A stretch of DNA of 64,000 nt from an uncultured Erythrobacter sp. Its GTDB lineage: Bacteria; Pseudomonadota; Alphaproteobacteria; Sphingomonadales; Sphingomonadaceae. The notes under the pieces were generated by a model. The model was given only the letters and a program-made list of their open reading frames with translations, had not been told where the DNA came from and ran no database searches. This document shows, piece by piece, positions 32,360 through 33,454 of this stretch (the first letter of the stretch is position 1; every line of letters begins with the position of its first letter). The stretch is from positions 2,442,501 through 2,506,500 of the forward strand of contig CANMTU010000001.1 of assembly GCA_947501005.1 (NCBI GenBank), written 5' to 3'. A program made the position numbers and the translations under genes.

Positions 32360-32384
32360 TCATCTACGCTTGACGCTTCGCTCT

Positions 32385-32402
32385 TTTCTGTATAGACAGA
32401 AA
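32385..32402. promoter_or_regulatory. 18-bp palindrome TTTCTGTATAGACAGAAA, candidate operator
   Basis: Inverted repeat TTTCTGT-N4-ACAGAAA; overlaps a TATAGA -10-like hexamer, 23 bp upstream of the GbsR/MarR-like ATG. Confidence 0.6.
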
Positions 32403-32424
32403 TTCAAGAAATGGAGCCGATCCC

Positions 32425-32967
32425 TTGGCCGACATCATGGACATCCCCGAAGCGCGCGCCTTCATCCTCCACTGGGGGGAGATGGGCAGTCAGTGGGGGG
32501 TCAACCGTTCGGTGGCGCAGGTTCACGCGCTCCTCTACCTTTCCGATCGTCCGCGCCATGCCGAGGATATCTGCGAGAAACTCGGCCTCGCGCGTTCCAA
32601 CGTCTCGAACGGGCTGAAGGAATTGCAGTCCTATGCGATCGTGCGCCGTGTTCACGTGGAAGGCGACCGGCGCGATCATTTCACCGCCGAGACGGATCTG
32701 TGGGACATGCTGCTCAAGATCGCCGCCGAACGCAAACGGCGCGAAATCGACCCGACCATCCAGCTGCTCGGCGAGCTGGCCGACAGTCTCGAAGGGCGCG
32801 CCGATGTGCCGGCGCACATCCGCGAGCGGATCGGGCGTATGCACGATTTTATCGGCACGCTCGCCGATTGGTACGCCGATATCCGCCGCCTGCCCAAGGC
32901 GACACTCGTCACCCTGATGAAGCTTGGCAGCAGGATCACCCGCTTCCTGCCCGGCTCCAAGCCCTGA
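32425..32967 (+). CDS. GbsR/MarR family transcriptional regulator
   Basis: WGEMGSQWGVNRSVAQVHALLYLSDRPRHAEDICEKLGLARSNVSNGLKEL. Confidence 0.88.
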   Translation: MADIMDIPEARAFILHWGEMGSQWGVNRSVAQVHALLYLSDRPRHAEDICEKLGLARSNVSNGLKELQSYAIVRRVHVEGDRRDHFTAETDLWDMLLKIAAERKRREIDPTIQLLGELADSLEGRADVPAHIRERIGRMHDFIGTLADWYADIRRLPKATLVTLMKLGSRITRFLPGSKP

Positions 32968-33015
32968 GCAACTGAAAGGAGATCGCCGCTGACCGACCCG
33001 AAATGCGACTGCCTA

Positions 33016-33033
33016 TTTCTGTAATTACCGAAA
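33016..33033. promoter_or_regulatory. 18-bp near-palindrome TTTCTGTAATTACCGAAA, candidate operator
   Basis: Matches the palindrome at 32385 at 14/18 positions; just upstream of ORF 33047. Confidence 0.55.
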
Positions 33034-33046
33034 CAGGAGAAACATC

Positions 33047-33454
33047 ATGTATCTCGTTCCCGCATACATCGTCTATCTGCTCGTCAGCGTCGGCCTTACC
33101 ATCTGGGTCGCGCGCACGCTGTCCCGGAACGGCATCGTCTTTCTGAAGGAATGCTTCGGGCATGACGACATGCTTGCCCGGTCCACCAACCACCTGCTGG
33201 TCGTCGGCTTCTATCTCGTCAATCTTGGCTGGATATTGCTGACCTTGCGGTTCGGGCGCGCGCCGGAAAGCGTGGCCGACACGATCCGCTTCCTCTCCAG
33301 CAAGATCGGCCTCGTCGTCGTGGTGCTGGGCGCGATGCACTTCTTCAACATGAATGCCATCGCCAAGTTCGGACGCAAGGTCGGCCAGTGGCTGCGCGAG
33401 GACGCCTTCGGCAATCCGCAGGAAGAAGCGGCACGAAACGTCGTCCTGCGCTGA
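33047..33454 (+). CDS. Small integral membrane protein of unknown function
   Basis: 135 aa with about three hydrophobic segments; good RBS spacing. Confidence 0.75.
   Translation: MYLVPAYIVYLLVSVGLTIWVARTLSRNGIVFLKECFGHDDMLARSTNHLLVVGFYLVNLGWILLTLRFGRAPESVADTIRFLSSKIGLVVVVLGAMHFFNMNAIAKFGRKVGQWLREDAFGNPQEEAARNVVLR

Follow-up and report, generated by a model that had tools for sequence, protein, structure and literature searches.

Two similar palindromes lie ahead of two neighbouring genes at the locus studied here, one encoding a MarR-type regulator and the other a small membrane protein, and the question is whether a single repressor controls both genes through these sites. The window, i.e., the whole stretch of 64,000 nucleotides from an uncultured Erythrobacter sp. 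that was analyzed, contains the regulator gene at 32425..32967 (+ strand; 180 aa, TTG start) and the gene of the three-helix membrane protein, which belongs to an unnamed family, at 33047..33454 (+ strand; 135 aa). Both genes were as the preliminary description had given them, and CoA-transferase genes, metK, and lnt are the other neighbours of the regulator. With a probability of about 85%, the locus is an autoregulated repressor module, in which a dimer of a GbsR-type MarR protein would bind the two palindromes, the predicted operators O1 and O2, and block transcription of the regulator and membrane-protein genes, the whole regulon in this genome. What the sequences establish is the presence of the genes and sites, how the sites are conserved, and that they depend on the regulator.

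The regulator is a member of the GbsR-type MarR winged-helix proteins. It matched MarR_2 (E 8.5e-10), and MJ223 of Methanocaldococcus jannaschii (PDB 1ku9), the template structure for the GbsR family, came out as its best relative of known structure in the sequence-profile comparison (E 4.5e-20) and as the first hit in the fold search with its structure model (E 3.2e-9). Both the winged-helix head of MarR proteins and a long-helix dimerisation domain like that of MJ223 were recognized in this way. MJ223 is archaeal, however, and offers no operator or target for comparison. Other members of the subfamily sharing this fold template, GbsR, OpuAR, and CudC, control genes of betaine synthesis or uptake and carry an aromatic cage, which according to a review is absent from GbsR proteins not involved in osmostress (PMC6207618). 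Their betaine genes, in contrast, are absent at the window locus, and the regulator scored 55.7 bits with the CudC profile, for which the cutoff is 218. Choline-type osmoregulation was ruled out by the gene context, as no betaine synthesis or Opu transporter genes adjoin the locus.

The first palindrome, O1 (TTTCTGTATAGACAGAAA; 32385..32402, not assigned to a strand), lies over the regulator promoter, and the second, O2 (TTTCTGTAATTACCGAAA; 33016..33033, likewise without strand), ends 13 bases ahead of the start codon of the membrane-protein gene. Their positions and their agreement at 14 of 18 bases were confirmed. The common pattern proposed in the preliminary description, TTTCNGTANNTACNGAAA, held for O2 without mismatch and failed for O1 at one position (GAC for TAC). 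A better common form is TTTCTGTnnnnACAGAAA, to which O1 conforms at 14/14 positions and O2, with a single mismatch, at 13/14. Allowing up to one mismatch, this form was found in the window only at O1 and O2, with 0.00 occurrences expected in 100 shuffles, and a pattern search of the whole 3.12-Mb genome found it at the same two places only. The regulon in this genome would therefore consist of two promoters. Many unrelated copies of the motif, which would have spoken against the original proposal, did not turn up in the genome, where the single extra copy at two mismatches was regarded as background. At that stringency the looser pattern gave three genomic sites versus four for the reversed control pattern, and the third site (C1:2946525-2946542 of the window genome, G000, corresponding to L003 1501-1518) was rejected on this ground; it is intergenic, flanked on one side by a cytochrome c-like reading frame and on the other by a large divergent one.

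A putative promoter of the regulator gene is formed by a -35-like element TTGACG (32370..32375, + strand), of which TTGAC is found again ahead of the operator in the promoters of many regulator orthologues, and a putative -10-like element TATAGA (32391..32396, + strand). The latter falls within O1, in agreement with the overlap described before. The spacer between the two elements is 15 bases long, and a simple promoter scan, which needs a spacer of 16-18 bases, made no call for this pair.

Relatives of the membrane protein were sought in 84,980 species genomes, where at least 570 stretches coded for one, and the 80 best loci were retained. Together with the window these gave 68 loci, from three phyla, that had both genes and enough upstream DNA to be scored. 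All 68 regulator promoters matched TTTCTGTnnnnACAGAAA at 11/14 positions or better, 65 of them at no fewer than 13/14, and between the regulator and the membrane-protein gene a site of at least 11/14 was present in 60 of the loci. Dinucleotide shuffles reached 11/14 in only 10 of 1360 trials per region (~0.7%). Loci of closely related species are not independent, and most weight was thus placed on the cross-phylum cases, in which the site was carried by Sphingomonadales, Labrys, Pleionea, Planctomycetota, and Opitutae. The sites were kept across the three phyla while the surrounding DNA was not. Short palindromes do turn up by chance when two copies are compared, and O1 and O2 could in principle be accidents or structural elements of the DNA that regulate nothing; this explanation is extremely improbable, being already contradicted by the conservation at every scored regulator promoter and by the shuffles of the window, in which no such site was expected. 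The two operators were not conserved to the same degree. O1 was near-perfect across species, and O2 was looser, with positions 5, 6, and 14 degenerate; in Opitutae, where the two genes form a tight unit preceded by a single site, and in a few sphingomonads, no clear second site was found among the 68 scored loci.

Within the family of the host, the membrane-protein gene was present in 23 of 201 genomes, with a homologue of the regulator adjacent in 22 of the 23, and where the pair is present the palindrome nearly always lies ahead of each gene. The distribution of the module (window 32425-33454) is patchy even within the genus, as it was absent from three genomes and present in two (G080, G148, G200, G207, and G210). 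In many relatives it occupies one conserved site, between the CoA-transferase genes and metK-lnt, and because of this conserved position loss is the likely cause of its absence. Some relatives have an extra gene for a hydrophobic protein of 150-180 aa between or after the pair (L036 6677-7225; L053 6700-7218; L044 6888-7364), and no Pfam match was found for those of these proteins that were scanned.

Twelve loci have a membrane-protein gene without a nearby regulator (in Lysobacteraceae, Undibacterium, Acidobacteriaceae, and some Planctomycetota), and 10 of the 12 scored 9/14 or less. Locus L137 lacks an adjacent regulator yet has a perfect site, and on account of this orphan site a regulator was predicted elsewhere in that genome. 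A distant regulator was indeed found (E 7.6e-81), preceded by the identical 18-mer TTTCTGTATAGACAGAAA. Similarly, L118 has a site of 12/14, and its genome encodes distant regulators, one of which has its own perfect site. The converse was seen in genome G016, which retains, next to metK, the regulator gene with its operator and has lost both the membrane-protein gene and the operator of that gene. The presence of the site follows the regulator and not the membrane-protein gene. Binding of the operators by the regulator is itself a prediction, and the palindromes might instead serve another transcription factor, with the adjacent regulator a bystander. This is very unlikely, considering that the sites follow the regulator gene across phyla, including the distant regulator predicted beforehand, and that their dyad has the same form as the sequence protected by the regulator CydE in a footprint. 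In Lysobacteraceae (L112 3919-4233; also L115, L117, L121, and L124), the membrane-protein gene lacks such a palindrome and is near a regulator of a different kind, the ArsR type, so that one target may here be switched in another way.

Among studied regulators, CydE and CioR come nearest. In Alishewanella sp. WH16-1, CydE is a GbsR-type repressor of cytochrome bd that also represses its own operon, with sulfate as the reported inducer; its DNase footprint protects TATTTCAGAAATTTCTGAAAGTTCA, with the core TTTCAGAAATTTCTGAAA (PMC6096048). CioR of Chromobacterium violaceum is a GbsR-type autorepressor of the cytochrome bd operon CioAB; its binding was demonstrated by EMSA and is lost with zinc or iron (PMC11837568). 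Like the window regulator, CydE is a GbsR-type MarR protein, and its operator has the same 18-bp frame, TTTC-G------C-GAAA, with A at position 5 instead of the T of the window-type operator. The target of CydE is cytochrome bd in one co-transcribed operon, whereas no cyd gene is present at the window locus. CioR likewise represses its own membrane-protein operon, but its target is CioAB, unlike in the window. Among the five operator sequences sought in the papers searched, only that of CydE was found, and nothing was found on GbsR in Sphingomonas.

Homologues of the window regulator adjoin cydAB or cydDC, those next to cydAB being 43-48% identical to it, and two of the cyd-linked loci carry the exact CydE 18-mer. 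In the tree of 113 regulators, the cyd-linked sequences were separated by a branch of 1.47 (support 100/99), and the sphingomonad group linked to the membrane-protein gene was supported by 100/100. The operator dyad of the CydE/CioR group, TTTCAGnAATTnCTGAAA, was not what the module carries, as T occupied position 5 in 66 of the 68 regulator-promoter sites; operators of the cyd group usually have A there, with L159 as an exception. Because the cyd-linked regulators form a separate group, the window regulator would act in the manner of CydE yet is no CydE itself. Given the shared regulator family and dyad form, and the two CydA homologues encoded in the genome, it could still be supposed that a CydE-type repressor has cytochrome bd elsewhere in the genome as its main target, with the membrane-protein gene as a side target. 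The long branch and the lack of such a site at the cydA loci make this slightly less likely even than the bystander explanation. Control of the cytochrome bd genes of this genome was accordingly rejected, as the two cydA loci agreed with the full consensus at no more than 12/18 and 11/18 positions. Residue 56 of the recognition helix is Ala in the membrane-gene group (L059-L111) and Ser in the cyd group (L153-L160, L163, L171, L173, and L174), roughly paralleling T and A at operator position 5. It was not accepted as the cause of the change and is a lead only, for L159 has Ser with a T-type operator. A third regulator branch (L145, L149, and L152) is found next to an enoyl-CoA hydratase gene, without a strong palindrome of the O1/O2 type.

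One repressor very probably docks at both palindromes, switching off its own gene and the neighbouring membrane-protein gene. That the regulator would bind as a dimer, repress, and respond to an inducing signal is carried over from the relatives. The dimer would sit on O1, over the -10-like element, and exclude RNA polymerase, and would also sit on the slightly imperfect O2 and block transcription into the membrane-protein gene. A signal would release the repressor, so that the regulator and the membrane protein rise together and are then shut off again. Repression is preferred to activation because the relatives are repressors and because O1 overlaps the -10-like element. The autorepression and co-control of the 135-aa gene predicted in the preliminary description are thus favoured by the conservation of the two sites (68/68 and 60/68), by their tracking of the regulator, and by the footprint and autorepression of CydE. 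Against the repressor module stand the imperfection of O2, the unclear second site in Opitutae and a few sphingomonads, and the 15-base spacer. The systematic weakness of O2 at positions 5, 6, and 14 also means that the two sites need not act alike, and the regulator could be a dual one that represses itself at O1 and activates the membrane-protein gene from O2, or O2 could be merely auxiliary. This is unlikely, though the most probable of the alternatives, since O2 lies downstream of the usual position of an activator site and CydE and CioR are repressors. Under joint repression from O1 and O2, the same difference between a near-perfect O1 and a looser O2 could possibly free the membrane-protein gene before, or more fully than, the regulator gene.

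The earlier view of a small unstudied regulon fits the window genome, with its two promoters, but in relatives the regulon can include DUF4166/dehydrogenase or desaturase genes. In three genomes (G168, G024, and G016), a perfect operator lies ~165-220 bases ahead of a DUF4166-matched region, and the only homologue of the regulator is of the window type. Behind the DUF4166 gene of G168 comes one that is saccharopine-dehydrogenase-like. Other sphingomonads have a paralogous regulator beside DUF4166, and in G015 a fatty-acid-desaturase gene is preceded by a perfect operator. No DUF4166 gene was found in the window genome.

The 135-aa protein had no match in Pfam, NCBIfam, PADLOC, or PHROGs, and homologues were found in several phyla. 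Its structure model consists of three long helices (mean pLDDT 85), and the fold search of the PDB gave no match better than E 3. A bacteriorhodopsin profile hit (E 0.006) was attributed to hydrophobic similarity, bacteriorhodopsin not being returned by the fold search. In 39-40 sequences drawn from several phyla, residues N48, H98, and N101 did not vary and H49 hardly did; going by the helix order and the positive-inside argument, these polar positions may lie close together near the cytoplasmic face of the membrane. Genes for MBOAT, epimerase, and DCC-type thiol oxidoreductase proteins occur near the membrane-protein gene in other genomes, which together with the DUF4166 and desaturase associations suggests that the protein acts in membrane lipid or redox stress. 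Such a role is also our best guess in view of the operator, which in relatives guards DUF4166/dehydrogenase and desaturase genes, and of the sister regulators, whose target is cytochrome bd. More tentatively, and with the odds rather against it, the protein could found a new three-helix membrane family (Pseudomonadota to Planctomycetota, and Actinomycetota) in membrane lipid/redox homeostasis, controlled together with DUF4166/dehydrogenase and fatty-acid-desaturase genes by a previously unrecognised GbsR-type branch, as a membrane-stress regulon reshuffled between genomes.

The results define a predicted operator code for one branch of the GbsR-type regulators; the papers searched gave none for it, only the CydE paper being returned. 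They tie an orphan membrane-protein family of several phyla to one testable and easily studied two-promoter switch, and the operator provides a handle on co-regulated genes, hence on the roles of the membrane protein, DUF4166, and their partners. A gene for a DCC/DUF393-like thiol-disulfide oxidoreductase directly follows the membrane-protein gene in one member of the Acidobacteriaceae (L123 3402-3845), in one of the Planctomycetota (L128 1102-1533), and in a Streptomyces plasmid record (L139 5396-5827).
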